From the NCBI RefSeq assembly GCF_003171515.1, contig NC_089399.1, positions 2,418,001 through 2,482,000 of the forward strand: DNA of 64,000 nt. Direction: 5' to 3'. Positions 12,256 through 47,884 of this stretch are shown here, piece after piece. The DNA is from Pyrenophora tritici-repentis. Its lineage: Eukaryota > Ascomycota > Dothideomycetes > Pleosporales > Pleosporaceae. Within the stretch, counting starts at the first letter, position 1; every line of letters starts with the position of its first letter. The position numbers and the translations under genes are program-made. The notes under the pieces are model-generated. The model was not told where the DNA came from and did no database searches. It saw nothing but the letters and a program-made list of their open reading frames with translations.

Positions 12256-13447
12256 ATGGCTAACGCTAGCAAGAAAATCCTTGTACTTGGAAGTGGCATG
12301 GTGGCACCACCATGCCTGGAATATCTGTCTCGCAACCCGATCAACAACCTTACTGTTGGTAAGCTTGTGTGATATCATCTACATATCGTAGTTAATAATA
12401 CGCTGCAGCATGTCGAACGCTAGAATCGGCTCAGAAGCTCGCTGCTGACTTTCCTCGTACTACTGCCATCGCTCTGGATGTTGCCTCTGAAGCGGCTCTC
12501 GAAGAGCAAGTAGCGGCACATGACGTGGTCATCTCACTCATCCCTTACATACACCATTCAACAGTCATCAAGGCCGCCCTCAAGGGTAGCACACAAGTCG
12601 TTACGACAAGTTACATCTCAGATGCCATACGGAAACTTGACGAAGACGCCAAGAAGGCCGGCATCACTGTCTTGAATGAAGTTGGCGTAGACCCCGGCGT
12701 AGACCACCTCTATGCTATTAAGAAGATCGACGATGTTCACGAAAAGGGCGGTAAAGTTCTCGAATTCTATTTATACTGTGGCGGGCTTCCCGACCCAGAA
12801 TGCGTCGACAATCCCCTTGGCTTCAAGTTCTCGTGGTCTCCGCGAGGTGCGCTTCTTTCGCAGTGCAATTCTGCACGATTCCTTAGGGACAACAAAGTGC
12901 AGGAGATCTCTTCCGAGAACCTCATGATGTCGGCAACATCTTACTACGTCATGGACGGCTATGACTTCGTGGCTTATCCTAACCGCGACTCAGTGCCATC
13001 CCGAGACTTCTATGGTATTCCGGAAGCTCATACAGTCATCCGCGGTTCGCTCCGATACAAAGGAAACCCAGCCTTCGTGCAAGCGTTGGCTAATCTGGGT
13101 TGGCTTGACCGGGACAAGAAGGATTGGCTGAAGGACGGCATGACGTGGGCGGAGATGCAGCAAACTGGGATTGCTGCATCTGGCACGGACGCAAAGTAAG
13201 TCCCACCTTCCATATTGGAATATCTCTTGCTTATACGGCATTAGCTCTCTCATCTCCCGCATCAAGCAAGTTGCGCGCTTCGCCGACGAGGCTGAAGGAG
13301 AGCGCATCATTGACGGAATGAAGTGGATAGGCATTCTTTCCACGGAGAGCGCCACCATCATCGGAGGAAACCTCCTTGACACCCTTTGCAGAAGGCTGGA
13401 GAAGCTCATGAGCTATGGTCCGGGTGAACGCGACATGGTCATGCTCC
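12256..13447 (+). pseudogene. LYS9: LYS9 saccharopine dehydrogenase (glutamate-forming), 5' part cut by hAT insertion
   Basis: Exons 12256-12358, 12409-13195 and 13245-13447 splice in phase. The N-terminal Rossmann motif is KILVLGSGMVAPPCLEYL; family segments GVDPGVDHLYAIKKID and GTDANSLISRIKQVARFADEAEGERIIDGMKW (across the last junction) are clear. The frame stops being LYS9 directly after GERDMVML, at the 8-bp target duplication 13,440-13,447, where a hAT end begins. About 80 residues of the C-terminus are missing here; they lie at 45,529-45,847 on the other strand. Known role: step before the last in alpha-aminoadipate lysine synthesis. The coding part left here is otherwise undamaged, so the break is fairly recent or a functional copy exists elsewhere. 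Confidence 0.93.
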
Positions 13448-13959
13448 CAGAGTTGCTATCAGTCAGTTCAGTCAGTCCGGAGCTCTCTGGACTGACTGAA
13501 TTGACGTCCTGAGGTCACTGAACTGGACTGGACTGACTGCTAAGACTTTTCAATTAAACTAAAACTGAGTGACTGAACTGACGTCGCCGCGGCCTACGGA
13601 CTGACTAGACTGACTGAACTAAGTTACCTAACGTCGAACTGAGATAAATGCTCCTATACTTTTAAGATTTCTTCCTCTAATAGTGTGCGCGCTAGCCTAG
13701 AAGCTAAGGTAGTTATTAGCTATATACTAAGCCTCTTCTAGCTCTTTAAGCTCTGCAAAGCTAAAATAAGCTCTAGCTTTATATAGAGTCTCTAGGTGCC
13801 TAACATGTCGCTAAGCTCGCTAAAAGTCCGCTTACAGTCTGCCGCTGCTGCTAGTATTATTAGGACGTTGAGAGTAAACTTTAAGAGTATAGTGAACTAT
13901 CTAGTAACTAACTCCTAGTATAGAAGCAGATTAAGAGATAGCTAATCCTCCTTAGCTAA

Positions 13960-15335
13960 CGCTAGTTGCCGCTTCTATATTTTATACTTATCCTTAGCAA
14001 GGCTTGCCTCTAACTACTATGTGCTTTACTTAATTAATGACTATAGAAAAGCTAATCGCGACGTTAAAATCCCTAGCTAGGGCTTCTTACGCGGCGGCTT
14101 TATAGTGTAAGCTAAAGTAGCTATAGAGTCCTTCCGCCCCTACTATATGCGCAGGAATGCCTAGTAGTTATTATTAAGCTAGCCGTCGCGATAGTGGACA
14201 CCGTTACAGGCAGTAACATAGGTGTTAGGCACCTTCTAGAGCGCTAAGAGGTAGTGTTTGTAGTGCGGGTGTAGTATTATAGCAGTGTAGTAGATAGGCG
14301 CGTTATCGAATTTTGCGTAGTACTTAGCAAGCTTACAATGCGCAAGGTTAACGTTTATAATAAGATAATCTTTAGGCGCGTCTAGATCTCCGTAATTTAC
14401 ATTGTGATGGTTTTGGGCCGTTGCCCCGCACAGGCCACCTGCCAGATGCCTTAGCGTTGTTTTGATGTTCGCGCACGAGCCACCTGTTTGGTGGCCCATG
14501 CACACCCCCACTTAGATATATTCCGCGCAGAGCTTCTTACAAGCTCTGCACTGCAATTACTTTGTAATTCAACACAGTTTCAAATACCTGACCTATGTGA
14601 GACCCTTACATACATCCTTAAGGCGGTCTTTAAGAGCCTTAAGCTAGTTAAGAAGCTACTTAAATGTTACTAGAACTTCCTATATAGCGCTGTGCCAGCC
14701 GTGTTAGCTTCGATCTTTAAGTAGCCTTGTAGCTTTAGTAAATAGCTTAAGGAGTTAAATATATTCTATTATTATTGCCTAGTCCTTGCCGCTTAAACCC
14801 CCTTCGCGTATATATAATCATAGCTAGGCAATAGGGAACTGCTTATAATTCTTCTAGCGTCGTGAGGTTGCTGTTATAGTACTATGCTCCTTAAGTTTAC
14901 ACTTAATATAGCTATCGATAGGGCCGTGTAGCTTAGCTGCGCGGACAAACGTGTTGAAATAGCTATTCTAGCGTGTCTTAATAGGCTTCACAAGCTGCTA
15001 GATATATGGTGTAACACTTAGAGACTCTGCCTCCTCGCGCTATAGGCGCTCTAGTAGTTGTTGAGTTTAAGGCGTGTAGATAGACGCAATTACGTCAAAG
15101 AGGACGCTAATAGGACTGTATTTACACTACTTATCTATGTACTTCTTCTCTTTCTTAAGATGTGCGGCTTTATTCTTATACGCGCTACGGTCTTTGCCCT
15201 AAGTTACTAATTGTGCACTTAGGTTAAGTATATAGTAGTAGCATTGTAGCCGCCGCTCGCTTGCGATAAAGCTAAACTCCTCTACTAAGGACTTAACTAC
15301 AGTATTATTATTACTTCTACTATAAGGTAATATAG
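13960..15335 (-). pseudogene. hAT transposase, C-terminal half, RIP stops
   Basis: Read on the minus strand from about 15,335. Recognisable hAT blocks are: an NNNTVVKSLVEEF stretch after the second catalytic region, RRLQCYYYILNL (equivalent to the RCxGHIxNL block), LKALKDRLKD, then after the solo LTR VNYGDLDAPKDYLIINVNLA and YYTAIILHPHYKHYL. TAG/TAA codons stand where CAG, CAA or TGG are expected. The N-terminal half is not here; it is at 46,244-47,281. The C-terminal limit is approximate. Confidence 0.8.
14403..14610 (+). mobile_element. Solo LTR, 208 bp, TSD TACAT
   Basis: TGTGATGG...CCCTTACA, flanked on both sides by TACAT (14,398-14,402 and 14,611-14,615). It interrupts the hAT frame exactly between LKALKDRLKD and VNYGDLDAP. 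It keeps balanced composition inside strongly RIP-mutated DNA. A near-identical copy is at 58,412-58,619 and a truncated inverted copy at 43,219-43,342. Strand is arbitrary. Confidence 0.9.
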
Positions 15336-15946
15336 GATACAGCGGTTATTAGAAGCGAGGGCTATCTTTATATTGCGTAGGCGTAGGTCGCTAAGGTAGA
15401 GCTCTAAGAGGACATCGTTAAGGGGGCGATTATTAGCTCCTTTAATATCGTTATATAGGTTATAGGTGCCCTTTAGGAAGAAGTAGTCTAACCCTACTAA
15501 TATTATAGAGGTAGATAGTAAAGCGCCTTCGCCGCTCTCTTATATTAGTGTAAGGATAGAGCCTAGGTTATAAGAATTATCGCCTAGACATACTCTAGCG
15601 AGGCGTACAGCAGTATAGCTACCGCTCTATTAGTTAGAACTTAAGATAGTTTAGTATTAGTGCTAGACTAAGTCGTCTATAACTAAGTCTAGTAAGTCTC
15701 CTATTTAGCGGGTAAGGCTATTAGGCTTAGTACCTTATTTACTAGGGCAGTATTATATATAAAAGTCAAATTCCTTTAAGAACTTAGCCTAGTAGGCTTA
15801 TTAACGATTAAGATTACGTTTAGAGTCAAAGTATTTAAGCCTATAATAGTCTATTAGCACTTCTACTACCTTAGAAACTCTTATAAGTTCTAGCCTCTAT
15901 TCCTTAAAGGCGTAGACTATAGCGAGGAGCTCCTTATTATATATCT

Positions 15947-16143
15947 TGTCGGCATACACACGGTGTGTCGCCTAATGAGGCCCAATGTACCGCCTCGATC
16001 CTACTTCGGCCTAACTCGGACCCAACGTTATGTATACCTTCGTAGCCCCCACATTCGTAGAATCATCATACACCAGAATACTAATACACAAAATTACCTT
16101 AGTTACTGTTATTCACCGTACGATCGTATAAGGCCTTCTAACA
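15947..16143 (+). repeat. Cop1-R 5' LTR
   Basis: Begins TGTCGGCATACACACGG and ends in ACA, 197 bp. A few RIP-type changes set it apart from the Cop1 LTR. Confidence 0.93.
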
Positions 16144-17294
16144 CTAATTAGTAATTGCATAGCAGTCACAGATAGTTAGGTTAAGAAGAGATAGATTCTT
16201 TACCCCGCGCGTTCCCTAGATTACCTATATTAGCAAGGCGAAGTTATCTATACTAAGCTCACTGTTAGCTATATTAGGCGTCGTTCGTGGCTAGCGACCG
16301 ACTATTACAGCCGTATTAGAAGCGTTCTAAGACGCCGTCTATACACGCGCTAACCGACTAGTTAAGATTTAACCCGTGTACAACCTACGACCACTAACGT
16401 ATCCCTAGCGAACGCAGCTAGCGCAATAAGCGTTAACAAGAACACAATAGCAGGAGAGAGAATATTATTAGAAAGAGCACTAGTAGCTAGGACACTAGCA
16501 ATAGGAATAGCGAGCAGTAGTAGAAGAGTGGTACCCACACTAGAGGCGCTACTAGGGACTATAAATATAAAACTAAGAGAATAGCATTATATTAATCTAG
16601 AGATGTAGGAGGACAACGTTGAAGCTCTAGACAATAAGGTAGGGATTACTACAGCATTAACGTATATTGCGCGTGCGATTGCGGACTATACAGATCGACT
16701 AACAGCAGATAAAGAACTCTTCTAGGAGTTCCGTTAGGACTTTAAAGGATAGACAGAGGTAATATTCTTACGTGCCCAGCTAATATACACAAAGGAAGTA
16801 AAGCGGATCCTCCGCTTTAAGGGAGTGTATACTAGCCGTATTAATATGGCACCTAGTGAGTCTCTAGCTAGGTTATTACGCATAGAGGAGTACCTAGAAT
16901 AGCCTTAGGACGTATTCTAGTCGGCTGTGTTTGACACACGATTAGCTGCGCATATGTTACAAGAGCGGGCACTACAGCAATAACGCAGTGAAGGATTAGT
17001 ATAGTCTATAGATAGGAGATTATTAAGCTAGGCCTAGAGCCGAACCTAAACGCCTGTAAGGACAAGAGGCCGAGACGTAGACAGTCGGCAAACCCGCGAT
17101 TAAGACTAGACCTACGCCCGTGTGCAAGGACGACAGGAGACCGTTAAGGAAGAACAACAGATTTAGGACTAGCTAGCAAAAACGATTAAGAAAGCCTAAA
17201 ACTAACTAATCTAAAGCTAGCCTATAGAGACAACTAAATCCGCACTGTAGCTAGCCTATTAGCGCGTCTAAAGTTAGCAACCTCCTCTTACCTA

Positions 17295-19397
17295 CAGTCG
17301 GGTGACAAAAAGAAAGAGACTTTTTAAAAGTTAACTTTTTCTAAGCTCTATATCTAAAGAACTAGACTACCTAGACTAATACATCTTGATTTTTTAGAAA
17401 GTTAAGAACCTTCTCGTTAGGTAAGGTTACTATAAGATATACTTAGTAGGCAAAATAAAGCTAATCTAAGGCAGTAAAAGTAGAGTTCAAAAAGAGCTAG
17501 AAGAGAGTTAGGTATAACTTTTTACTGAGCGTATGAAAATTTCTAAAAAAAGTTCCTAAGATACTAGCTTATATAAGCATTACATAAGCAAATCTCTTTC
17601 TAAACTTTCTTATCTAGTTAATTTTAAAAACGAAGAATAAAGAAAAGTACGCTAAAAAAGTACGCTAGAATTACGTAATAATCTACTAGTGTTATTCTAT
17701 ATATCTTTCTCTTTCTACTTCCAAATTTTCTCATCTCTATTATCTCTCTATGTCTCGAGAGCTTTCTAAATTCGAAAAAGAAGTTTATACTCTATCTTTG
17801 CAAAAAAAATCTACTAGTACTATTAGTACTATACTAGAAAAGCCTTATAAGTCTATTTATAATACTTTACAACGTATTAAGAGGAAGAAAAGTCCTATTC
17901 TACCTCTTTCTACGCCTAAACTAGGCCGCCCTACTAAGGTCTCTAAACGAACTACTCGAGTAGTTAATAGAGACCTAGAAAGAAGTCCTAAGAAGACAAA
18001 TAGGCGTATTCTAGTAGAGAATAATCTAGATTTCTCTACTAGAAGCCTACAACGCTTATTGAAAGCAGAGAAATACTCAAAATCTCTAGCTAGAAAGAAG
18101 CAGCTTTTAAACGCAGAAAAAGCTACTAACCGCAAGAATTACGCTAAGAAGACACTTAAAATTCTTAAAAATATAAACTTTAGCAAAGTTATATTTTCTG
18201 ACGAGTCTTCTATACAGCGTGGGTATGGTGCTAGGCAAGAATACGTTAGAAAGAGAAGAAATAAGCGACTTGGAAAGGAACAGGTCCAAACAACCAACTC
18301 AAGTGAGTTTAAAAAATATCTAAATAAGCTAAAATATTCTTTGAAAAATCTAGTATTTTTCTAGGAGTTTAGTACATTTTTATCTAACTTACTAACAGAG
18401 ATATAGCCCGCGATATCTCGATAGGTGTTTGGGGAGCTATCTGGATAGGTGGAAGATCTAAGTTACACATAACTAGATCTCTACAGGACTCTAGAACATT
18501 TACAAATACACGTTATATACGAGAAGTACTTGTACCTATTGTTAAACCTCTATTTAAAAGAGGTAAGTAAGAAGTCTTTCTTTCTTACTTTAAAAGACTA
18601 TATCTTTTGAATTTCTTGATACTTTTTAAGTTTTTCTTTTTATTCTTAAATTTAATAATTAATTCTATTTAGGTTGGAAATTTCAGCAGGATAACGCCAA
18701 GATCCATAAAACGCCAGCAGTTATCTCTTGGTTCTCCAGGAATAAAGTTCCTCTTTTCGAGCATCCGGCCTATAGCCCAGATCTAAATCCTATAGAAAAC
18801 GTTTGGAGCTTACTTAAGAATAAGCTAGCAAAAAGGCCTAGTGCCTCTTTAGGCATAGGTAAGAGTACTAAGGCAGTAGAATTGTTTAAACAAGCAATTC
18901 TAGAAGAGTGGGAGCAATTACCGCAAGAGGTAATAGATAACTGTATTAGGTCTTTACCTAGGCGTTATCTAGCAGTAAAAGCAGCTAGAGGTTGGTATAC
19001 TAAGTACTAGTAACTAGCTTTGGCTACTTTAATATAAAAAAAGCTTTAAAAACTTCTTTTTAGCCTTACTCTTGCAAACACAAGTAGAATAACTTCTAAT
19101 TTGAACATTGTATAGATCTATACGTAATAAATAGCATATAAGAGTTTTAGCTAAAAGGATACTGTAGATAAAAAGTTATACTTAGATTTGTAGCTTACTT
19201 TTTTCTACTCTTAAACACTACTAGAGTTACTCAGACGTAAGCTTACTTAGCATCCTTTTTAGTAACCCATCTTAAAAAAAATGTTCTTAGCTTTCTAGAG
19301 AACTAAAATTTATTAGTCTAGCTAGTCTAGTTCTTTAGATATAGAGCTTAGAAAAAGGTAAATTTTAAAAAGTCTCTTTCTTTCTGTCACCCGACTG
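17295..19397 (+). mobile_element. Tc1/mariner element with long inverted repeats, TSD TA
   Basis: 2,103 bp, flanked by TA (17,293-17,294 and 19,398-19,399). Ends are CAGTCGGGTGACA..., near-identical in inverse for about 85 bp and recognisable for about 130 bp or more. It is inserted in the gag region of Cop1-R. Its composition is AT-rich but the transposase is open, unlike the host element. Confidence 0.93.
17750..19010 (+). CDS. Tc1/mariner DD34E transposase
   Basis: Starts at ATG 17,750. The N-terminal part has helix-turn-helix-like DNA-binding sequence (FEKEVYTLSLQKKSTSTISTIL...) and an RxKKSP..GRPTKVSKR hook. The first catalytic Asp is in KVIFSDESSIQ. The frame then changes between about 18,300 and 18,400 (an intron with GTGAGT and an acceptor near 18,398 is likely; exact phase unresolved). 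It continues DIARDISIGVWGAIW, and an intron at 18,563-18,672 (GTAAGT to TTTAG) splices in phase to WKFQQDNAKIHKTP. Second Asp in QQDN, Glu in NPIENVW, 34 residues between, giving DD34E. Stop TAG at 19,008. It may be functional if the first junction is an intron. Confidence 0.82.
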
Positions 19398-22300
19398 TAT
19401 GATAACTTCGACCGATTCCGCGAGTATACACTAGCATACCCGCAACGTCTGAAGGGACCGAGCGTTCCCCTAATTGTGCCCTCTAGTGAAACAGACCCGT
19501 ATAAGGTAGTTCCACTAATCGAGTTTAGTAATAAGAAACTAGATCCTAAGACGATTAATGTCTTCGTGAAAATATAGGACTAAGACAAAAAGTATACGGG
19601 AAAGCCGTACGACCTCCTAGACGATAAATTGAAGATCTTCTATAGTATCTATTATTACGTAGACAATAAGCTAGGTTAGTTTTATGCAGTCTTTCCACGG
19701 ATTCTCGACGGCCGCGCAGAGGAGTATTACCTCCACTTCGTCGATTAGCAGATAGATACATTCTTAACTACCTACACAAAGCTTAAGAACCACTTCGACA
19801 TAGACGTTAACCACGGCTATTACTACGCGGACTAGACGACAACATCGTTTATTAAAGTCCACAGGGAGAACCCTAAAAAGAACTTCTACAAGGTCCTTAA
19901 CATTATATTAGATAAGCTCTAATTATGTTAAAGAGCACTTAGACAGCAGTACATAGGAGAATACGCGCTCCGAAAAACTATAATTACAGCATGCTAAGGC
20001 GTAAAGGAGCTTAAGATAGCACTCTACAAGCCGTCTCTAGAATGCGAGGTTCTGTTTAGAGATCTGCGATCGTTAATTAAAAACTTACTCGCTATAACTA
20101 TCTCTGTTAACTTCACAAAGGCGGATATAGATAGCTAGTACTACTTAGATCGCTAGTACAACAACAGCAACAGCTCTAGGAGATTACGAGGGAATTACAA
20201 CCCTTGCGGTAGACACAGCGGATTCATCCGCGGACGCGGTGGGCTTTAGCACCGTTCTAGAGTTAACACACAAATTAACAAGAAATATTACGTATATAGC
20301 AAGACAGGCTATTAGTCTATAAACTACACGCTTAAAGAAAGAAAACGTTTAAAAGCACAGTACATTACACACTGCGCGATTATAGGAGAGTAAATAGAGT
20401 TTAGCACATTTCTTGTCGCGTACAAGAGGGAAGAAGTCGACTAGTTCTTCCTAGAGGAGCAAGACGAAGATGATGAAGACTAAAGACTAGCAGTTAAGTA
20501 CCTCACAGATTAGGCCTTTTTGCACTACGTGACTAAAGAAGACGTCTACAGGCGTAAGGAGCCTATTACGCCCGCAACGCAGTTCCTTATTAAGGATCAA
20601 TACTCGCGAATTACGTACTAAGGCATTCTTCCTAACACTAGTGCCTTAAATGTATCGATAGCTAGAAAGGAGCAGTTCCTAGCGCTCTAAACTAAGGACC
20701 CTACTATAACTCTAGATACGTCTACTACTAGAAACGTATCTATATAATTTAGCAAAGGAAGTGTTACTACTTTAATTAGAACTGCACATGTATCGACATA
20801 GATTAGAAAGATTAAATTTAAGGTCTTAAACGCACCTACCCTATTTCTCCTCTGTCTAAAAGACATAGACTAGCTCTACGTGTACTTTAATAATACTACG
20901 GACTAGCTAGTACAAGGAAAAGCTACCTTTCTAGTAATTCGCAAATAGGGACACCCGTGGTTCCACCTAAGTAAGGCAGAGCGCGCGCGCGTATTCCTTA
21001 CAGAGACTAAGCTCCGACGCTTACACTAGAGGTTTAGGTATCTAGCCGTCGAACGGCTGATACGATTGCTTAAACGCGCAGGACACGAAGACGTGGATAA
21101 ACGGCTGCTCTAAGAGATCTAAACGTTCTATTATTACTACTAAGCGCATAATCTAGCGCCGCGCCGATTTAAGTTTAGGCTAAAAGATAATTAGGAATTT
21201 AACTTCAAGATCCTCGTAGATGTAATGTACCTAAGTAGGAAACTAGTACTTCACGTAATCGATTCGGCTACAACATTTAACGGCGCGCGATTTCTACCAT
21301 CTATAAGCGCGAAAGACACCTAGGAAGCACTCCGCCTGCTCTAGATTAATACATACTAAGGGCCGCTAGATATCGTTACCTACGACGCTAGCACTAACTT
21401 TGCGTTAGTCGAATTTAGATTAGAGGCGAAGATCATAGGAATTACACATAAACAAGTGCTAACCGAGACCTATTAGTCTATTAGCAAGGTAGAAAGATAC
21501 TACGCACTGCTTAGACGCGCGTACGAGATCCTAAGGACAAAGCTTAACACTAGCACTAGCGACGCCGCAGTGTTGTAGATAGCAGTCAAGGCCGTTAACA
21601 ACACCGCAGGCCTAGACAGGCTCGTACCTACGCTGCTCGTCTTTGGTGCATACCCCTAGATATCCATGGATTCACCACTATCTCCCTCGATAACCTATCG
21701 CGCGGAGGCAATCTAGAAAGCGATGAGGGCGCTGCGGAAGGCTGCAGCGGAACATGCGGTGAGCAACGCACTTAGTACTAGGAACGGGCCTACTATAGAC
21801 GGGGTACTATCACTGTCTCTTTAGAGTGAGGTGATAGTATAGCGCAAGAAGAATAGATAGTAAGGGCCGTATAGAGTTATCGATATAAAGGACCACGATG
21901 TTACTATAGACATAATTAACGGCCCAACGACGTTCTAATCCACTGTCGTAAAACTGTACTATCGCGATCTAACTACAGCGATAGACAGCGCAGATTAAGG
22001 CACAGGTAGATTTCCGACTATAGACGAAGCGATTGCTAATAAACCGCCACTACTAGTACCACCGGCGGAAGCCACCTAAGCGGCTTAGCTGCGTAAGCGG
22101 GGCCGCCTACCTAGATTAAAGAACAAGCCTAAGTTGCAGTACTTGTCGAAGAAGGAGGAGGACGATTACGCCCTGGCCGTCAAGCTACGCAATGACGGCG
22201 TGATTAACGTCCTAGGCGCTCTATTCGAAGCATCCGATTAGAAGGAGATTAACGACCTCGTCAGCCGTAAAGTATTTAGTTTTAAGCTATTTAACCTAAC

Positions 22301-22954
22301 TCTACACAGCGGGTATTGTATCTTTAAATCGCGCATAGTCCGCGAAGTTAAAGGCAAGACTATAGTCCCGTACGAGAAATCACGCCTCGTTGTTTAAGGT
22401 TACAATAACGAGGGCAAACACGAGATCCTAACGCAGTCGCCAACTATCTAACGAGCCAGCTAGCGCCTAATTCTAGCCCTAGCGCCTGTATTACTTAATA
22501 AGGGCATAGTTGTAGAACTACGAGATATCACGCAAGCGTACCTATAGGCATAAATAGAGCTATTCCGCACAGTTTTAGCGCACCTCCTAAAGGAGCTTAT
22601 AACAAAGTATCCTAAGGGAATAATTATTCGCGTAATTACGCCACTCTATAGAATCGCGGAAGCAGGAGTCTACTAGTTTACTACGTACTAAGGACACTAC
22701 TATAAGGAGCTTGATATGGCTATATTAACGTATAACCCGTGCCTCCTAATCACGAACGGGAGACAGGAAGCGTTTAGAATAGTAGGCCTGCAGACAGACA
22801 ATACTCTCGCAATTAAGACGCCTGTATTCTCTAGTGTAGAAGACGCTGCGCTCTAGAAAGCCAATTTTCGAGCTAAGCCTAAGGAGAGACTGTCTAAAGA
22901 AGTATCACTCGAGTTTAATAGATGTACTCTAACGTTGTGCGGAGACACGATTCT

Positions 22955-23406
22955 TGTGAAGGTCGTCCGAAGATGATCTTGGGTTGGTTCTCGGGGATAG
23001 AGTGATGCGATGGACACGAGGGTGTATAGCACGATTGGTAGATCGATGTAATATACGGGGAGTTGAGAATCAGGTACTAATCCTTAGATTTCGAAGTTGA
23101 ACACAATGAACCGTAAGGGCTCATTGCCTATTGTTATATACTAACGAATGTCCTATGTCCTATACGTCCTACGTTGTCCTACACTGTCCCATGCGTGGGA
23201 CATCGTGGTACATCGTGGGATTCCTTGGGACACACGTGACATGTCCCATGGTGGCGTTCCGCCAAGCTTTGTGGGATGCGGGGCAGGCTTACGTCATTGG
23301 TCCTTGTACACCTTTGTACGCCTTTGTCTGAGAAGGGATTCCGACAAGGTCTCCATCCTTCTGCCCTTCATATCTTGCACTGTGTCCTCTCCTTAGGTTC
23401 GTAACA
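22955..23406 (+). mobile_element. Solo LTR, 452 bp, TSD ATTCT
   Basis: TGTGAAGG...TTCGTAACA, flanked by ATTCT (22,950-22,954 and 23,407-23,411). The empty site is seen in Cop1 (CACGATTCTACTTACG near 30,050). It holds short repeated gtcctac/tgtccta and cccatg units and no RIP signs. Strand is arbitrary; family unknown. Confidence 0.93.
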
Positions 23407-24316
23407 ATTCTACTTACGCAGAAAGGACAAGGTGCTAAGATCGAAATTATTAATCTAAAGGCAGTAAACTAAGTACAGAAGTATATAGAGCAGCGTGCGC
23501 GTAGCGCGTACATTGCGTCGATATGCTAACCTAAAGCATTGTTCGATCTTTCCGCGGCTGCGCAAATACAACAACCTAAGGACATAGAATACGTGAAGCT
23601 TAACCGCTGGCTGTAGTGGCAATCTAAGAGTATACAATAAGGCCTATAATACGTCCCTCTCGACCTCAATATAGCAAAGCTGGTAGTGTTCACAGACGGA
23701 TCCTTCGCAAATAACTAAGACCTTAGCTTATAGCTAGGGTACCTACTTATCCTTGCAAATAAGTCGAGTTGACAAGACAGCACGTTTAATATTAGTGGTA
23801 ACGTAATCTATTAGAGTTCGACCAAATGCAAACGCGTTACCTAGAGCGTTCTTGCCTTAGAAACGTACAGTATAGTTAGCGGTGTCGATATCGCTATCGC
23901 TATTCTAACAACCCTTAAGATAATTATAAGATGCCTAGGTCTACTACTAATCCTACTTATTGTGTGTACAGATTTATACTCCTTATATAAATGCCTTGTT
24001 AAACTCAGAACAACTGCTGAGAAGCAACTGATAATTAACATTATAGCGCTTCGGCAGTCATACGAGCGTCGCGAGATTACTAAGATCCGCTAGATTAACG
24101 GAGAAGACAACCCCGCAGACGCATTCACGAAAGCAACACCAAATCGCGCGTTAGAACGTTTCATCGAAAGCAATAAGCTGTTAATCTAAGTAGAGGGATC
24201 TGTGCAGCGACCTACGGAGTAGGCACATATGCCTATTTAGAATCCCTCTTATTGTGTTCTTTTTAGAAGACCTATTTTTCCTTATATTAGTCGTTACAAC
24301 AAGAAAAGATTGCTAG

Positions 24317-24513
24317 TGTTAGTATACACACGGTGTGTCGCCTAATAAGGCCTAATAAACCGCCTCGATCCTACTTTAGCCTAACTCGGACCCAACGTTA
24401 TGTATACCTTCGTAGCCCCTACATTCGTAGAATCATTATACACCAGAATACCAATACACAAGATTACCTTGGTTACTGTTATTCACCGTACGATCGTACA
24501 AGGCCTTCCAACA
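24317..24513 (+). repeat. Cop1-R 3' LTR
   Basis: 197 bp, TGTTAGTATACACACGG...CCAACA, RIP-type differences from the 5' LTR. Confidence 0.93.
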
Positions 24514-25161
24514 TATCTCGTAATTACACTCTATAGGCGACATCTTCTTTAAAAGATAGGCGACTAGCTAAACTAATCTATCTAGCTAAACCTAGGAGAG
24601 CACTACTACGTATATATACTTAGACGCGTTAGTTTCTATAATAGTCTTTAGGTTAGGGTTAAAGTAGACGAGCACTACGTTACTATAAAAGGCGACTTTT
24701 AGTGTAAGGAAAGAGCACTTAGCTTCTTTAGTTATCTTAAATAGCTTAAGGTCTCCCTTAGTAAGATACGTTAAAGGTTTAGTAATATCTAAGTAACTAT
24801 ATATAAGTTAGCGGTAGAAGTTAGTAAAACCTAAAAAGGCTTATATATCTTTTAGAGATCAAAAAAGCTTCTAGTCTTAAGTAGCGCTAACTTTATCTAG
24901 GTCTATTTTAATATCATTAGTAGTAATAATAAGCCTAAGGAATTTAACGCCTATCGTTATGAAGTTAGATTTAAGAATATCTATAGGCAATCTAGCGTCT
25001 ACGAGCTAAGAGACTACCTATACTAGGTGCTTCTTTTCTTAATTAAAAGTCCTAGTGAAGATAATTATATTATCTAAGTAAGCTATATAAAACTTATTAA
25101 GTTATTTATATAAGACGTTATAAATATATACTTAGAAGATTCCTAGGCTATTATATACGCT
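24514..25161 (-). pseudogene. GypA reverse transcriptase / RNase H segment
   Basis: The minus frame reads the RT palm as AYLDN (about 25,060-25,100), where active gypsy RT has YLDD; the D to N change is a RIP-type G to A. The next downstream part reads towards RNase H. Many stops. The flanks are copia insertions with target duplications TATCT (left) and about CGCT (right). Confidence 0.78.
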
Positions 25162-25358
25162 TGTCGGCATACACACGGTGTGTCGCCTAATAAGGCCCAA
25201 TGTACCGCCTCGATCCTACTTCGGCCCAACTCGGACCCAACGCTATGTATACCTTCGTAGCCCCCACATTCGTAGAATCATCATACACCAGAATACCAAT
25301 ACACAAGATTACCTTAGCTACTGTTATTCACCGTACGATCGTACAAGGCCTTCCAACA
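25162..25358 (+). repeat. Cop1 5' LTR
   Basis: TGTCGG...CCAACA. Contains the short palindromes cacacggtgtg and cgtacgatcgtac. Directly followed by the primer-site candidate CTGATCAGTGATTGC. Confidence 0.94.
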
Positions 25359-25373
25359 CTGATCAGTGATTGC
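25359..25373 (+). promoter_or_regulatory. Candidate primer-binding site of Cop1
   Basis: CTGATCAGTGATTGC abuts the 5' LTR. The same 15 bases abut the 5' LTR of the unrelated-length Cop2 (55,224-55,238, minus strand). Position and conservation suggest priming; the tRNA is not identified. Confidence 0.55.
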
Positions 25374-25583
25374 ACGGCAGTCACAGACAGTTAGGTTAAG
25401 AAGAGATAGATTCTTTACCCCGCGCGTTCCCTAGATTGCCTATATCAGCAAGGCGGAGTTATCTATGCTAAGCTCACTGTTAGCTATATCAGGCGTCGTT
25501 CGTGGCTAGCGACCGACCGTTACAGCCGTATCAGAAGCGTTCCAAGACGCCGTCTATACACGCGCCAACCGACCGGTTGAGAT

Positions 25584-28500
25584 TTGACCCGTGTACAACC
25601 CACGACCACCGACGCATCTCTAGCGAACGCAGCTAGCGCAACAAGCGTCAACAAGAACACAATAGCAGGAGAGAGAACATCATCGGAAAGAGCACCGGTA
25701 GCCAGGACACCGGCAGTAGGAATGGCGAGCAGTAGTAGAAGAGTGGTACCCACACTAGAGGCGCTACTAGGGACCACAAACATAAAACCAAGAGAATGGC
25801 ATCACATCGATCCAGAGATTTGGGAGGACAACGTTGAAGCTCCAGACGATGAGGTAGGGATTACTACAGCAACAACGTACATTGCGCGTGCGATTGCGGA
25901 CTATACAGATCGACCAACAGCAGATGAAGAACTCTTTTGGGAGTTCCGTCAGGACTTTGAAGGATGGACAGAGGCAATGTTCCTACGTGCCCAGCCAATA
26001 TACACAAAGGAACTAAAGCGGATCCTCCGCTTTAAGGGAGTGTATACTGGCCGTATTAATATGGCACCTAGTGAGTCTCTAGCTAGGTTATTACGCATGG
26101 AGGAGTACCTAGAATGGCCTCAGGACGTATTCCAGTCGGCTGTGTTTGACACACGATCAGCTGCGCACATGTTGCAAGAGCGGGCACTACGGCAACAACG
26201 CAGTGAAGGATCAGTACAGTCCACAGACAGGAGATTATCAAGCCAGGCCCAGAGCCGAACCCAAACGCCTGTAAGGACAAGAGGCCGAGACGTAGACAGT
26301 CGGCAAACCCGCGATCAAGACCAGACCACGCCCGTGTGCAAGGACGACAGGAGACCGTTGAGGAAGAACAACAGATTCAGGACCAGCTAGCAAAAACGAT
26401 TGAGAAAGCCCAAAACCAACCAATCCGAAGCCAGCCTGTAGAGACAACTGAATCCGCACCGCAGCCAGCCTATCAGCGCGTCCAAAGTCAGCAACCTCCC
26501 CTCACCTACAACAACTTCGACCGATTCCGCGAGTATACACCAGCATACCCGCAACGTCCGAAGGGACTGAGCGTTCCCCCAATTGTGCCCTCTGGTGAAA
26601 CAGACCCGTACAAGGCAGTTCCACCAATCGAGTTTGGCAATGAGAAACTGGATCCTAAGACGATCAATGTCTTCGTGAAAATGTGGGACCGAGACAAAAA
26701 GTATACGGGAAAGCCGTACGACCTCCTAGACGATAAATTGAAGATCTTCTACAGCATCTGTTATCACGCAGACATCGAGCCAGGGCAGTTCCATGCAGTC
26801 TTTCCACGGATTCTCGACGGCCGCGCAGAGGAGTATTACCTCCACTTCGTCGATCAGCGGATGGATACGTTCTTGACTGCCTACACAAAGCTCAAGAACC
26901 ACTTCGACACAGACGTCAACCACGGCCATTACTACGCGGACTGGACGACGACATCGTTTGTCAAAGTCCGCAGGGAGAACCCCGAAAAGAACCTCCACGA
27001 GGTCCTTGACATCATGCTGGACAAGCTCCAATTGTGTCAAAGAGCACTTGGACAGCAGTACATGGGAGAATACGCGCTCCGAACGACTGTAATCACAGCA
27101 TGCCGAGGCGTGAAGGAGCTCGAGATGGCACTCTACAAGCCGTCTCTAGAATGCGAGGTTCTGTTTGGAGATCTGCGATCGTCAATCGAAAACTCACTCG
27201 CCATGACCGTCTCCGTCAACTTCACTGAGGCGGATACGGATAGCCAGTACTACTTGGATCGTCGGTACAACAACAACAGCTCTGGAAGATTGCGAGGGAA
27301 TTACAACCCTCGCGGTGGACGCAGCGGATTCACCCGCGGACGCGGTGGGCTTCAGCACCGCTCTGGAGTCAACACACAAATCGACAAGAAATGTTACGTC
27401 TGCGGCAAGACAGGCTGTTGGTCCACAAACCACACGCTTGAAGAAAGAAAACGCTCAAAAGCGCAGTACATCACACACTGCGCGATTACGGGAGAGCAAA
27501 TGGAGTTTAGCACATTTCTCGTCGCGTACGAGGGGGAAGAAGTCGACCAGTTCTTCCTAGAGGAGCAAGACGAAGATGATGAGGACCAAAGATTGGCAGT
27601 TAAGTACCTCACAGATTAGGCCTTTTTGCACCACGTGACTGGAGAAGACGTCTACAGGTGCAAGGAGCCTATTACGCCCGCAACGCAGTTCCTTATCGAG
27701 GATCGATACTCGCGAATCACGTACCAAGGCATTCTTCCTGACACTGGTGCCTCAAATGTATCGACAGCCGGAAAGGAGCAGTTCTGGGCGCTCCAAACTG
27801 AGGACCCCACCGTAACTCTAGATACGTCTACTGCTGGAAACGCATCTGTGCAATTTGGCAAAGGAAGCGTCACTACTTCGATTGGAACCGCACATGTATC
27901 GACACAGATTGGAAAGATCAAATTTGAGGTCTTGAACGCACCCACCCCGTTTCTCCTCTGTCTGAAAGACATGGACCGGCTCCACGTGTACTTCAACAAT
28001 ACTACGGACCAGCTGGTACAAGGAAAAGCTACCTTTCCAGTGATTCGCAAATGGGGACACCCGTGGTTCCACCTAAGCAAGGCAGAGCGCGCGCGCGTAT
28101 TCCTTACGGAGACTGAGCTCCGACGCTTACACCGGAGGTTCGGGCATCCAGCCGTCGAACGGCTGATACGATTGCTCAAACGCGCAGGACACGAGGACGT
28201 GGATGAACGGCTGCTCCGAGAGATCCAAACGTTCTGCCATCACTGCCAAGCGCATGATCCAGCGCCGCGCCGATTCAAGTTTAGGCTGAAAGATGATCGG
28301 GAATTCAACTTCGAGATCCTCGTAGATGTGATGTATCTGAGTGGGAAACCAGTGCTTCACGTGATCGATTCGGCTACAACATTCAACGGCGCGCGATTTC
28401 TACCGTCTATGAGCGCGAAAGACACCTGGGAAGCACTCCGCCTGCTCTGGATTGATACATACCAAGGGCCGCCAGATATCGTCACCCACGACGCCGGCAC

Positions 28501-30870
28501 CAACTTCGCGTCAGTCGAATTCAGATCAGAGGCGAAGATCATGGGAATCACATGTAAACAAGTGCCAACCGAGGCCCATTGGTCTATCGGCAAGGTAGAA
28601 AGATACCACGCACCGCTCAGACGCGCGTACGAGATCCTGAGGACAGAGCTTGACACTGGCACCAGCGACGCCGCAGTGTTGCAGATGGCAGTCAAGGCCG
28701 TCAACGACACCGCAGGCCCAGACGGGCTCGTACCCACGCTGCTCGTCTTCGGTGCATACCCCCGGATATCCATGGATTCACCACCATCTCCCTCGATAAC
28801 CCATCGCGCGGAGGCAATCCAGAAAGCGATGAGGGCGCTGCGGAAGGCCTCAGCGGAACATGCGGTGAGCAACGCACTTGGTACCAGGAATGGGCCTACT
28901 ACAGACGGGGTACTGTCACTGCCTCTTCAGAGTGAGGTGATGGTATGGCGCGAGAAGAATGGATGGCAAGGGCCGTATAGAGTCATCGATATGAAGGACC
29001 ACGATGTTACTGTAGACATGATCAACGGCCCAACGACGTTCCGATCCACTGTCGTAAAACCGTACTATCGCGATCTGACTACAGCGATAGACGGCGCAGA
29101 TCAAGGCACAGGTGGATCTCCGACCACAGACGAAGCGATTGCTGATGAACCGCCACTACCGGTACCACCGGCGGAAGCCAACCAAGCGGCTCAGCCGCGC
29201 AAGCGGGGCCGCCCACCTGGATCAAAGAACAAGCCCAAGGTGCAGTACCTGTCGAAGAAGGAGGAGGACGATTACGCCCTGGCCGTCAAGCTACGCAATG
29301 ACGGCGTGATTAACGTCCCGGGCGCTCCATTCGAAGCATCCGATCAGAAGGAGATCGACGACCTCGTCGGCCGTGGAGTATTCAGTTTTGAGCTGTTTGA
29401 TCCAACTCTACACGGCGGGTATCGTATCTTCAAATCGCGCATGGTCCGCGAAGTCAAAGGCAAGACCATGGTCCCGTACGAGAAATCACGCCTCGTTGTT
29501 CAAGGTTACAATGACGAGGGCAAACACGAGATCCTGACGCAGTCGCCAACCATCCAACGAGCCAGCCAGCGCCTGATTCTAGCCCTAGCGCCTGCATTAC
29601 TCGATGAGGGCATGGTTGTGGAACTACGAGATATCACGCAAGCGTACCCACAGGCACAAACAGAGCTATTCCGCACGGTTTTAGCGCACCTCCCAAAGGA
29701 GCTTATAACAAAGTATCCCAAGGGAACAATTATTCGCGTAATCAAGCCACTCTATGGAATCGCGGAAGCAGGAGTCCACTGGTTTGCTACGTACCAAGGA
29801 CACCACTGCAAGGAGCTCGACATGGCTACATCAACGTATGACCCGTGCCTCCTGATCACGAACGGGAGACGGAAGCGTTTGGAATAGTGGGCCTGCAGAC
29901 AGACGATACTCTCGCGATTGGGACGCCTGCATTCTCTGGTGCAGAAGACGCTGCGCTCCAGAAAGCCAATTTTCGAGCTAAGCCCAAGGAGAGACTGTCC
30001 AAAGAAGTATCACTCGAGTTCAACGGATGTACTCTAACGTTGCGCGGAGACACGATTCTACTTACGCAGAAGGGACAAGGTGCCAAGATCGAAATCATTG
30101 ATCCGAAGGCAGCAAACCGAGCACAGAAGTACATGGAGCAGCGCGCGCGTGGCGCGTACATTGCGTCGATATGCCAACCTGAAGCATCGTTCGATCTTTC
30201 CGCGGCTGCGCAAATACAACAACCTAAGGACACAGAATACGTGAAGCTTAACCGCCGGCTGCAGTGGCAATCTGAGAGCATACAACGAGGCCTGCGATAC
30301 GTCCCTCTCGACCTCGCTACAGCAAAGCTGGTAGTGTTCACAGACGGATCCTTCGCGAACAACCAAGACCTTAGCTCACAGCTAGGGTACCTACTTATCC
30401 TTGCGAATGAGTCGAGTCGACAAGACAGCACGTTTGATATTCGTGGTAACGTAATCCATTGGAGTTCGACCAAATGCAAACGCGTTACCCGGAGCGTTCT
30501 TGCCTCAGAAACGTACGGCATGGTTAGCGGTGTCGACATCGCTATCGCTATCCTAACAACCCTCAAGATAATTACAGGACGCCTAGGTCTACCACCGATC
30601 CCACTTATTGTGTGTACGGATTCATACTCCTTGTATGAATGCCTCGTCAAACTCGGAACAACTGCTGAGAAGCGACTGATGATCGACATCATGGCGCTTC
30701 GGCAGTCATACGAGCGTCGCGAGATCACTGAGATCCGCTGGATCAACGGAGAGGACAACCCCGCGGACGCATTCACGAAAGCAACACCAAATCGCGCGTT
30801 AGAACGTTTCATCGAAAGCAACAAGCTGTCAATCCGAGTAGAGGGATCTGTGCAGCGACCTACGGAGTAG
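25584..30870 (+). pseudogene. Cop1 gag-pol polyprotein with one stop and two single-base frame breaks
   Basis: Frame segments 25,584-26,390, 26,336-27,619, 27,626-29,887 and 29,845-30,870. Gag ends with an unusual zinc-knuckle-like CYVCGKTGCWSTNH (about 27,390). TAG at 27,617 separates gag from protease (PDTGAS, about 27,738). Integrase shows H..H..C..C (HRRFGHP ... FCHHCQAH) and D,D,E (VDVMYL, HDAGTNFAS, KVERYH). RT shows DITQAYPQAQ, LYGIAEAG and QTDDT in place of YxDD. RNase H shows FTDGSFANN, SVLASETYG and CTDSYSLYE. Frame breaks near 26,327 and 29,866 are one-base losses relative to Cop1-R. The first codon of gag is uncertain, since no early ATG is seen. Confidence 0.9.
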
Positions 30871-30964
30871 GCACATATGCCTATTTGGAATCCCTCTCAT
30901 TGTGCCCTTTTTAGAAGACCCGTTTTTCCTTACATCAGTCGTTACAATAAGAAAAGATTGCCAG

Positions 30965-31161
30965 TGTCGGCATACACACGGTGTGTCGCCTAATAAGGCC
31001 CAATGTACCGCCTCGATCCTACTTCGGCCCAACTCGGACCCAACGCTATGTATACCTTCGTAGCCCCCACATTCGTAGAATCATCATACACCAGAATACC
31101 AATACACAAGATTACCTTAGCTACTGTTATTCACCGTACGATCGTACAAGGCCTTCCAACA
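30965..31161 (+). repeat. Cop1 3' LTR
   Basis: Identical to the 5' LTR by eye. Preceded by a purine-rich tract (aataagaaaagattgccag). Confidence 0.94.
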
Positions 31162-33644
31162 CGCTAAAGAGTATAATAGTGTATTAGTATAGTCCGTAGA
31201 GCGTAATCAAGGCGGAGAGGTGTTTATATTCCTCTTTAATACGTATTTTATTAAATACGGCAATTATGTCTACCTTAGAGAAATATCGCGATTTAAAGAG
31301 CTTAGCAAGCATGTCCTAGATTAGTAGTAGGGTATTTTAGTTATTAATAGTGTAGGCGTTTAGACTATAATAGTTAACGCATATATAGATACCTTTACCC
31401 AGCTTACGCATAATAAGAAGAGGTATAGCCTAGGCAGAAGTGCTACGTTTAACGTATCCTTTCTTACTTACGTCGTCTATATAGAGTTTCACTGCTTAGG
31501 CTTTATCTTAGAATATTAGGCGTAGACGCTACGATAACAGCTTAGGCAGCTAGCTAGTATTATTAAGCTTAAGTTTAATTTTATAGTTAAGGTTACCCTA
31601 AAGCTCTAGAAGCTTATCTGCTTCTTTAAAGTTAAAACCTTAATATAAGAGATAAAGGATCTTAGGTAGTTACTTAAGAACTCCTTATCTCACTATGTGT
31701 AGACATTCTATCTTATTATAGAAATTCTCGTAATCCTCTAAAAGCACTTTAGCGCCTATAGTATATAGGTACTAAGTGTCCTCTTATTTCTTATTAGATA
31801 GCTTAGCGATGCGGTAGATTTTATCGTAAGAGGTAATATAAATATCCTAGTTCTAATAGATAGCTGGAGATAAAAGCTATATTAATTAGTAAGGGTGCTG
31901 TAGAGTAATAAGTAACCTTCTAGTAAGGGTTAGAGACTTGAGGGAAAAGTTGCTTATAGTACTAGCTACTTTTAGTATAATAAGGTTAGTAATTATGAAT
32001 ATAGTTAATTAGATAGTACTTTAAGTTGAAACTTAGAGATATATCTTTCTAGTTAACTTGGGGTTTATAGGTTTAGGACTAAGGCGTTCCTAGGATTATT
32101 TAGACGCTAGAGAGTTTAGTAATATAGGCTAAGATATCTTTAGCGTATATACTAAATATAATAGTTACCTAGGCTGTATAGGTAACGCCTACTACTAGAG
32201 AGCTATTAGCGAGTTCTAGAGTAGTAGGCTAAGAGAGAGAGATAAGGTTATATTTATATACGCGGGCATAAGAAGAATAAATAAAGAGAGAAGTATAACT
32301 AGTATTACCTATAATTTTAACGTATTAAGGAGAAGAGTAATTAGAAGAAATAATTTCTTTAAAGACTAGTTACTAGCCTACTAAAGGCTAATACTTATTA
32401 CTGCATATAGCGGCGGTAGTAATAGCTAAGAGAGTAATCTAAGATCTAGTCTAGCTCTATTATTTTAGAGCTTTAATATAGTTTATAATTACTTAGAGAC
32501 TTAGATCTAGTTTAGACTTATCATTAGAGCTAACTTCTATAGTAGGAGAAAGGGCAAGAGTTAAAGAATTATTAATTAAGTAGTTAGGATATAACTCCTC
32601 TTCTTCTTCGCTATCTTTAATAGAAGGGGTAGAGAGAATTAGGGGGTGTGCTAGTAGTTATACTAGGGGTAGCTTCTTATACTAGGGAGGTCCCTAGGGG
32701 CAACTATCGCTAGAGATTAAGCGTTTTCTAAAGGTTAGGGAGAGGTAGAGGTAACGCTAGCTATAGCGCCTTTAACCTTAGGGCGAGCTAGCTCTCTAAT
32801 AAGTACGCTATTATTAGTAATAGCCTTCTCTAGAGCGTCCTAAACTTTAGGGTATGAGTTAACAAAGGTAGCTAGCTCCTTAGAGTAGTAACCTTCCATA
32901 GCCTTAAAAGTATAATTCTTCTTAAGATAGTTAAAATAATAATTTAAGTAATAGAAGACCTTAACCTAGATATTAAAGTAGCTACGTGGGCTAGATCTTA
33001 AGCTAGATCTACTATTCTAGGGTCTATTAGAGGGACTAGACTTATTACCGCCTACTCCGCCGCCTTTACTACCTCCTAAACTCTAATTTCCTCTATAGTT
33101 ACTAGTTATAGTAGCTCGTTATATGTTAGACTATTCAAGGAGATAAAGAGTTTAATAGAAGTTAAGGTAAGTAAGGCTAGACTTTAAGACTTTTATAGCG
33201 GTTTTATTGCGCTACTATATAAGTAGCTAGTTATGTATAAACTAGATCTTAAGGGTGTTAGGCTAACAAAGGGCTAAGGTACTAACGTTAAAGTAGGTAA
33301 TATACTTACGTATAGACTCTATAGGCTTTATAGTAGAATTTAAGGTTTTATATTAAGAATAAGCTTTAATACTAGTATTTAGCGACTTATAGATAGATTT
33401 AAAGATAGACTAAGCCTTATTACTATGCGCGAACTTAGCTCTAGGTTTAAGGTACCTATACTAGAGGCATCTAAAAGCTTTATCCTTAGTCTTCTAGTAG
33501 ATATAGCTAAGCTTCTTAGTTTTTAAAGTAAAATTATAGGGATAATTAGTAAACTAATTAGTAACGTCTATCTTCTACTTAAGATAATCAGTAGAAGTAG
33601 TGCTATTACTAGAGAATACCTTAGGTTTAGGTTTCTTTAGGTAG
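31162..33644 (-). pseudogene. GypA gag, protease and N-terminal RT, RIP-decayed
   Basis: Minus-strand continuation of GypA beyond Cop1. RT N-terminal blocks are in 31,162-31,500, a protease/linker in 31,500-32,700 and gag-like Lys/Arg-rich sequence to about 33,600. No frame is open for more than a few dozen codons. Cut at 33,645 by a pogo-like element. Confidence 0.65.
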
Positions 33645-45528: not shown

Positions 45529-45847
45529 CTATATCTTTCTCTCTACCAGTACTACACCTTCCTTCTCCAAGAGAACCCTAATCAGATCACACATATATTT
45601 TTGGTATGGAGCCCACACACCAGGTATTCGTACCGCCGGATGCCCATCCATCAACAACTATGTGGCAATTCCACACGTAACACCGACGGACAGGGCCATA
45701 GCAGAGTAGCGGTTGGGGTCGCCGAACAGTTCAAGTGTAGAAGTAAACGTCTCCTACAGGAACAAGTCAGCAGATACAGAGACAGGCTCAATATCACACA
45801 CCGTGTCTCCATTTGACCACTCCACAACGAACTCGTGTTGGAGCATG
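45529..45847 (-). pseudogene. LYS9: LYS9 3' part, inverted and displaced
   Basis: Minus strand from the 8-bp duplication (45,840-45,847, CATGCTCC). Reads MLQHEFVVEWSNGDT, intron 45,754-45,801 (GTGTGT to TGTAG), then ETFTSTLELFGDPNRYSAMALSVGV. A TAG at 45,658-45,660 stands where the family has Gln (VQL); the sequence ends with LLEKEGVVLVERKI and a stop at 45,529. This is exactly the C-terminus missing at 13,447. CAG to TAG is RIP-type. Drift from the family is larger than in the 5' part. Confidence 0.9.
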
Positions 45848-46397
45848 CAGACTTGCTATCAGTCAGGTAACTCAGTTCGAACTGACTGAACTGACTGCCA
45901 AGACTCAGTTCAGTCAGTCAGTTCTTGAGGCCGCTGGACGTCAGTCCAGTCAGTTCAGAAGCCTCCAGACTGACTGAACTGACTAACGTTAGACTGACGT
46001 TAGCTGTTTTTAAAGCAGTATTTTAGAGTTATGAAAGCTACATCTAGTGCGGCTTCGAAGCCGCGCTAGTCTTAGATATAGAGACACTAATTCTATATAA
46101 GTTAAAGCATCTAGCTTAAAGCTAATTAGAGTTTGTGGAGATGCGCTGCCCAGTGCGCACCTAGCAAGCCTTTCGCGTCGCGTCGCGTCTGCTATACACA
46201 CAACGCTAGACTACTGTTGCCATAATACTTCTTAGTGTACTTCATGTCTACTCCCTCTAATTCAGGCCTTCGCCGCCTTGTAGAATACGACAAGCGCAAT
46301 TCTTCTCTACCATCGCTATTAAACGCGCCTACTGTTAGCGATACTGCGAGCGAGGCAAAGGCTGATGAGCCCTTGGCAGTACAGGCGGACTTCCCTA

Positions 46398-46432
<35 letters not shown>

Positions 46433-47281
46433 AATTACGACGGGCTTGATTTTAAGCGTGTGCCGTATCTTGAGCGGTGCTAGGTTGAGCGTAATAGTCG
46501 CGGTAGGCCAAAAAGCTAGATCTACCGCCACGGCTGGGCCGTCTAGCACCGCAAGTACAAGAAAAACTACTACTGTAGCTTTGCTAGTACTGCCGTTAAC
46601 GACGGAAGCAGGAGGCTTGCTATAAGGCTGACAGCACTACAAACGCCGGCCGACACCTCTTAAGCAACAAGCCTGGACACTCACACGGACCTAACGGACC
46701 TATACTAATTGCTAGCTGTGAGGGCAACATTATGGGCGCGCTCGCAAAGTCCTAAGTACATATTATAAAGTCTAAAGGGATAGAAGTATCGTAAGAGGTA
46801 GCAAACGAGATAGCAGCAAGCTTTTTAACCTCTTGATTTTAGGACGCGCTGAAGGACTAGGTAGTCGCGGACAACTAGAGTCTTCGCGTAATAGAAATGC
46901 CGCAGTTTCGAGCCATAATTACGGCCGTAAGCCCGCTAGCTAAAGCCCTCCTTTAGCGTAGCAACTAAACGCTCCGCGATTATATTATTACTAAGTATAA
47001 TACATATATACTAGCTATTGCTAACTACCTTCGCGAAGCCTAGTCGCTTATACACGTGTTATTCGATAACTAGACTTTAACTAGTAGGCAGTATGCTTTT
47101 ACTAGCCTCGGCGTACATTACCTTAACAGCGAAGGTAAGCTAGTTAACTACCTACTTAGGTTACCTAAGCTATATAGGGCGTATGCTAGCAATAATATTA
47201 CTGCTACAGCAATAATAATACTTCGGCTATTTAGCGTTAACAACGCGAGCGTTAGGTACTTTATGCTTGATAACGTAAGGT
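45848..47281 (+). mobile_element. hAT transposon, N-terminal half, right inverted end
   Basis: The end CAGACTTGCTATCAGTCAG (45,848-45,866) is the partner of 13,448. Subterminal tcagtcagt/actgactga repeats run to about 46,000. It ends near 47,281 inside the transposase and joins a gypsy integrase fragment. Confidence 0.88.
46244..47281 (+). pseudogene. hAT transposase, N-terminal half, RIP stops
   Basis: Starts MSTPSNSGLRRLVEY; poly-Asp run from a (GAC)n repeat (46,405-46,432); BED-type block GRPKS-IYRHGWAVWHRKYKKNYYC; later FTSLGVHYLNSEGKLVNYLLRLPKL and RYFMLDN. It stops just where the half at 15,335 begins. Confidence 0.82.
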
Positions 47282-47884
47282 ATTTAGATAGAACTAGCTA
47301 ACCTAGAAGCTAGCAACAATAGTAAGCTATTTATTAATAGCGGGCGTCTTATTATCCCCTTTAGTAAGAAACTCTATATAAGGATTATCGCACACATCTA
47401 TGATAGCTTACTAGGCGGCTACAAAGGTTATATAATAACGTACTAATCAGTAAGCTAGTAGTACTACTAGTAAGGTATAACAAATATAATTATACGCTTT
47501 ACTAATAACTATCTAACCTATAAACGCTCTAAGATTAACTGCACTGCTAAATATAGTTTACTTTACCTACTACTTATCCGTACTTAGTACTAGGACGATA
47601 TATCTATTAACTTTATTACCCTACTATTTAACTTAACCTAGTGTAGTTACTCTTACTAAAATATTATAGTCGTGGTCGACTATTCATTAAAATTAAAGAA
47701 ATTTATTATAATAGAAACCCTAGAGGTACTTATAGTTGTTAACAAGTTTATAGAATTTATCTAGAAAGAGGAAGGATACCTAAGAACTCTTGTATTAGAT
47801 TAGGGCCGCTAATTTACGTTATATTTCTAGAGTCGCCTGTGTGCCTAGGTAGGAACGCACCCTAAACTCTCTACTATCTATTAC
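47282..47884 (+). pseudogene. Gypsy integrase fragment (other part of GypA)
   Basis: Plus frame: LANLEASNNSKLFINSGRL, IIAHIYDSLLGGYKGY (HHCC region), then INFITLLFNL, VVDYSLKLKKF, LVLDQGRQFT and a YHPxTDGQ-like remnant. RIP stops. It continues the pol order that breaks off at 15,336 and is cut at 47,885 by an LTR. Confidence 0.8.

Follow-up and report, generated by a model that had tools for sequence, protein, structure and literature searches.

The window analysed here, a stretch of 64,000 nucleotides of Pyrenophora tritici-repentis (C10:2,418,001-2,482,000; the genome comprises 41 contigs and 40.9 Mb), contains a LYS9-like gene, a hAT element and a gypsy element, here called gypsy A. Each of the three is present in two parts that lie on opposite strands, and several further transposable elements are nested between them (Table 1).

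Table 1. Features of the window, numbered from its first nucleotide
Feature	Position	Strand	Evidence and remarks
5′ part of LYS9-like (saccharopine reductase) gene	12256..13447	+	tblastn of P0001 and P0002; cut by hAT insertion
hAT target-site duplication (TSD), copy 1, 8 bp	13440..13447	+	CATGCTCC; letters read
hAT arm A, transposase C-terminal half	13448..15316	-	Collinear with L010 521-2177
Short TG...CA element, solo-LTR-like, nested in hAT arm A	14403..14610	.	TSD TACAT
Junction 1	15314..15316	+	CTT common to hAT and gypsy; letters compared with L010, L069 and L070
Gypsy A, RNase H side	15314..33641	-	Collinear with L069, L070 and L073; pieces 15314-15946, 24514-25161 and 31162-33641
LTR element C, nested in gypsy A	15947..24513	.	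TSD TATCT; LTRs 93% identical
Last six residues and stop of P0001	16409..16429	+	Beyond junction 1
LTR element B, copia-like, young, nested in gypsy A	25162..31161	.	LTRs 198/198 identical
LTR element D, gypsy-type, within inverted segment	36108..43218	-	LTRs 169/170 identical (99.4%)
3′ end of LYS9-like gene, inverted	45535..45847	-	tblastn of relatives; putative 48-bp intron and one in-frame stop
hAT TSD, copy 2, 8 bp	45840..45847	-	Reverse complement of CATGCTCC; letters read
hAT arm B, transposase N-terminal half	45848..47279	+	Collinear with L010 from 2175 to end
Junction 2	47277..47279	+	AAG (= CTT) common to hAT and gypsy; letter comparison
Gypsy A, integrase side	47277..47884	+	Collinear with L069; integrase domains in L070

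The 5′ part of the gene has exons at approximately 12256-12358, 12409-13195 and 13245-13447 (splice sites read by eye) and is matched by the solved saccharopine reductases 2AXQ and 1E5L. Intact relatives map to the window in two pieces: residues 7-365 of P0002 (Zopfia) align at 12,271-13,446 (+) and residues 362-451 at 45,852-45,535 (-). The other four relatives mapped (P0003, P0004, P0010 and P0011) show the same split, first on the plus and then on the minus strand, as expected from the division of the gene at 13,447 (+) and 45,847 (-) in the first-pass annotation. There the gene had been named LYS9; the saccharopine-reductase type holds, but the canonical identity does not. A second gene copy, 55% identical and without stops in its matched part, is located at C1:3,664,496, and the window gene is not the best and only copy in the genome. 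The C-terminal 344 residues of the C1 copy scored 547 bits against 1E5L (Magnaporthe) and 474 bits against 2AXQ (yeast), compared with 490 bits over 443 residues and 494 bits over 444 residues, respectively, for P0002, a full-length relative of the window gene. Considering this higher score per residue against both structures, the C1 gene looks like the canonical LYS9, with no break seen in its matched C-terminal part. Judged by sequence, the window gene is a diverged LYS9 paralogue, a spare copy.

At both cut ends of the gene, a copy of the 8-bp duplication adjoins a hAT end. Read inward, these ends are CAGAgTTGCTATCAGTCAG and CAGAcTTGCTATCAGTCAG, and both carry the short terminal inverted repeat CAGA(g/c)TTGCTATCAGTCAG. 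An 8-bp duplication also flanks L010 (by eye), a full-length copy that is collinear with positions 13447-14402 and 14611-15316 of the window and then, reversed, with 47279-45831, the last few bases of the alignment running beyond the hAT end. The 208-bp gap in this comparison is the short TG...CA element, which matches a copy in L073 over 210 bp without a difference. In L010, the hAT dimerisation domain PF05699 was found (E 1.5e-17), in the part that matches arm A, and the other two L010 frames scanned gave no Pfam match. The hAT element measures approximately 3.1 kb and is broken within its transposase region, 1.4 kb from one end and 1.9 kb from the other.

Among the matches listed, 35 of the 39 arm-A places elsewhere in the genome adjoin an arm B, and each of these 35 pairs overlaps by exactly 3 bp. 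The arm-B side likewise had 39 other places among the matches listed, and on each side four of the 39 had no partner among them. An 18-mer running unbroken across the hAT breakpoint was present in 63 of the 65 fetched loci, which represent approximately 36 distinct places, and was absent from the window. The two loci without it are L005, which stops before the breakpoint, and L002. One of the four unpaired arm-A places, C3:69607, adjoins an arm retrieved in the integrase-side junction search.

Gypsy A is broken in pol, between RNase H and integrase. Nested elements C and B delimit its RNase H-side pieces, and its integrase side is truncated at 47,885, where another element begins with an LTR-like sequence (TGTCACGG). 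Copy L069 is collinear with window positions 47874-47266 (reversed), 15314-15935, 24513-25153 and 31159-33497. In copy L070, a 466-codon frame, which runs off either end of the fetched 1.4 kb, spans the breakpoint at residue ~236; it encodes RNase H (residues 1-85) and, further on, the integrase zinc-binding domain (266-322), and for these domains the order is that of a Ty3/gypsy pol. The two gypsy halves abut in opposite orientation in all 18 listed rows that reach the junction. For this pairing, the RNase H-side search gave 22 gypsy rows besides the window, of which 18 were entered and four partial rows stopping short were excluded; the integrase-side search gave 23, with 19 entered and four stopping short excluded. 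Rows matching the hAT part alone (18 and 17, respectively) were left aside. One integrase-side arm, C9:603585, had no partner among the matches listed. BLAST overlaps between the halves were 10 bp in 16 cases, 14 bp in one and 3 bp in one; the letters in L069 and L070 give three shared bases, the longer overlaps being due to chance extension of the alignments. The far end of gypsy A (query L072) had no match in the window or the next 8 kb, and its LTRs were not located in the same interval or in comparisons with other copies.

The letters at the breakpoints are GTTA-CTT-GCG in hAT copy L010 and AATAC-CTT-CTG in gypsy copy L069. The window reads hAT-CTT-gypsy at 15,314 and, on the reversed strand, gypsy-CTT-hAT at 47,279, with every base of the compared copies retained and none added. 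The reversed segment begins with CTT and finishes with the complementary AAG, which leaves an uncertainty of 3 bp in where exactly the cut fell. The breakpoints had earlier been placed at 15,335 and 47,281, correctly within both elements but approximately 20 bp too far right at the first and 2-5 bp at the second. The string taaggta, noted as possible microhomology, must be replaced by CTT/AAG: near 15,322, it lies wholly in gypsy DNA. A match of at least 3 bp occurs at 5.2% of random hAT/gypsy position pairs, so the shared CTT is weak evidence of mechanism, hinting at end joining without proving it.

Evidence from outside this genome comes from P0001, an NCBI protein of P. tritici-repentis (367 aa, in a cluster of 12 members) and the only one from Pyrenophora among the species-named relatives in the best 120 of 3,211. 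It differs from the window gene by one residue over residues 1-361 and then ends in the tail RTQLAQ. This tail, followed by a stop, is encoded once in the window, at 16,409 (+), directly after AG, inside element C and 1.1 kb past junction 1. RTQLAQ is encoded at one further position in the window, 25,624, with no stop after it, and the tail is encoded on neither strand of hAT copy L010. P0001 is listed on a contig of 2,182,945 bp, a length unlike those of the contigs compared from this genome. Considering both the tail and the contig, it is most likely that a second assembly carries junction 1 and element C; this protein bears on junction 1 alone, through a predicted six-residue tail, and is silent on junction 2. 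The gene model behind P0001, and any other that runs across the junction, is probably an artefact.

These arrangements are very probably accounted for by a single reciprocal inversion of positions 15,314-47,279, as the first-pass annotation had proposed. One inversion with breaks in the hAT element and in gypsy pol predicts the positions and orientations of the half-elements, the split gene and the split duplication, and all of them agree. The claims on which that proposal was built also stand: the 8-bp repeats lie where they had been described, and the halves of both elements are complementary. Compared with L010, L069, L070 and the gene relatives, the exchange is reciprocal and base-exact at both junctions, with a reversed segment between them. 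The split duplication, the split gene, the abutment of both element pairs to the base and the reciprocal join can be read directly; that this was one event, and what the ancestral order was, we infer from other copies and the gene relatives.

An origin in at least two separate moves, for example template-switch copying followed by deletions, would fit the many insertions in the region and the missing far end of gypsy A. However, the breakpoint halves occur once each in a self-comparison of the window, and the joins show neither duplication nor loss of bases, so we regard it as very unlikely. The probability is smaller still that the assembly is wrong. Both junctions do fall within high-copy repeat families, where two misjoins might arise, but the copies here are 7-22% diverged from L010, L069 and L070, which makes a misjoin through identical repeats unlikely. 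Furthermore, the joined sequences have 3 bp in common, the two misjoins would need to be reciprocal to the base, and P0001, on another contig, is best explained by junction 1.

Inversions linked to transposable elements commonly arise by NAHR, in which two homologous repeats in inverted orientation recombine, but such repeats were not found at these breakpoints. Comparison of the hAT with the gypsy copies gave a best match of 15 bp (E 0.038). Within 300 bp of the junctions, the longest inverted match has 12 bp and lies away from the joins, at offsets -13 and +57. No homology longer than CTT was detected at the joins, either between the hAT and gypsy copies or in the 300 bp around both junctions, and NAHR is accordingly a most improbable explanation. 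Aberrant transposition, in which the hAT transposase cut the ends and flipped the segment, would explain why a hAT lies at one breakpoint, but it is hardly credible, with the break internal, 1.4 and 1.9 kb from the ends, and the duplication kept at both ends. Insertion of the gypsy element into the hAT was rejected, the breaks being internal to both elements, with no LTR end and no longer common repeat.

Both elements carry directly readable RIP-type changes, an excess of C>T/G>A chiefly at CpA/TpG. In the hAT arms, 257 of 293 substitutions relative to L010 are C>T or G>A (182 at CpA/TpG and 56 at CpG), and in the gypsy arms the figure is 241 of 259 relative to L070 (125 and 89, respectively). 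Per arm, C>T/G>A counts were 40/48, 49/34 and 43/43 for hAT and 51/68 and 54/68 for gypsy, none strongly one-sided, and no dinucleotides informative for dating RIP against the inversion were seen by eye at the junctions. Published accounts describe RIP in P. tritici-repentis as weak (PMC3538342, PMC5913888), and the RIP-type changes found here make the hAT and gypsy A copies look older. Element C is approximately 11% diverged from its family and RIP-like by look. The low LTR divergence of B and D suggests that these two arrived late, whether before or after the inversion. The 32 kb given in the first-pass annotation is correct as the present size but includes nested elements; without C, B and D, approximately 10.3 kb remain. 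Nested LTR elements make up much of the 32 kb, so that the length of the segment at the time of the inversion may have been approximately 10 kb.

The single inversion would have proceeded as follows. The hAT element would have inserted into the LYS9 paralogue, duplicating 8 bp, with gypsy A sitting downstream; that this came before the inversion, the order already proposed, follows from the inversion having split the duplication. One double-strand break in the hAT and one in gypsy A would then have been rejoined by end joining with the DNA between them reversed, so that one half of each element, together with the 3′ end of the gene, came to lie at the far end in reverse orientation. Several nested LTR elements would have inserted later. 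The 3 bp common to both joins suggest end joining with tiny homology, and two double-strand breaks repaired in this way are the most likely mechanism.

Isolates of P. tritici-repentis are described as differing by inversions, fusions and translocations, with possible breaks in LTR or repeat beds, and isolate M4 as having inverted segments on Ch3 and Ch10 (PMC5913888, PMC9594970). The inversion described here is likewise repeat-associated and in the same species, but those published are described as large and drawn from whole-genome alignment without base-level breakpoints, whereas this one is 32 kb and known at base level (PMC5913888, PMC9594970). By its title and abstract opening, a study of another fungal plant pathogen, Sphaerulina musiva, also reports inversions, there in a genome that transposable elements have shaped (PMC12778737). 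Families of hAT are listed among the most frequent repeats of P. tritici-repentis (PMC3538342), to which the element of approximately 3.1 kb found here can be compared. Neither this inversion nor the break in this gene is named in the titles and abstract openings found, and either may be in print.

It is a speculative and rather unlikely possibility that RIP-weakened transposon nests serve as break sites in the species, that the inversion originated in one of them before at least two isolates split and that this nest, which may lie on the fused chromosome 10 of isolate M4, goes on gaining elements and so forms a datable rearrangement hotspot. Telomere repeats, a possible scar of chromosome fusion, were absent from the window, which says little, 0.37 being expected by chance.

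The event looks real and cleanly readable, of an ordinary and already known type, and is a precisely resolved example of it, in which two transposable elements unrelated to each other underwent a reciprocal exchange. In old inversions, both breakpoints are not always still readable; here they are clean and can be checked. The lysine pathway gene itself appears not to be cut, the canonical-looking LYS9 remaining on contig C1, and the inversion could be a marker for tracing isolates of this wheat leaf-spot pathogen.

A second LYS9 copy is present in the genome on contig C1 (positions 3664496-3665155), where the reading frame is open from the matched part to the C-terminus. Of the two copies, this is the canonical-looking LYS9. 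Close relatives of the LYS9-like window gene appear to be scattered over fungi, including Zopfia, Emydomyces, Periconia, Cladophialophora, Glarea and others, and among the named entries in the best 120 of 3,211 relatives Pyrenophora is represented only by the broken window gene.

When the deposited P. tritici-repentis gene model P0001, near-identical to the 5' part of the window gene, was compared with window positions 13438-16408, its splicing appeared to cross the hAT element and junction 1 (hAT/gypsy A) into element C, the LTR element nested in gypsy A. The model is probably an annotation artefact.

A 71-aa ORF and a predicted tRNA-Arg lie within the inverted segment, and no Pfam match was retrieved for the ORF. 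Window self-comparison also detected two segments within 33650-36100 (34470-34722 and 35683-35935) that are about 71% alike and are perhaps DNA transposon remnants, a type guessed by eye, as well as a unit of about 176 bp present as two head-to-tail copies with 99.5% identity (62318-62678). The middle copy of the short TG...CA element is partial and immediately adjoins the LTR of the gypsy-type element D. The copia-like element probably inserted into the element whose LTR-like start lies at 47,885.

Small ORF, predicted tRNA and mobile elements in the window
Feature	Position	Strand	Remarks
71-aa ORF	44631-44846	+	Several cysteines; signal-peptide-like start judged by eye
tRNA-Arg (TCT), predicted	43968-44053	-	
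Short TG...CA element, three copies	14403-14610, 43224-43342, 58412-58619		Window self-comparison
Copia-like element	49339-55430		LTRs identical (194/194); CTACT duplication
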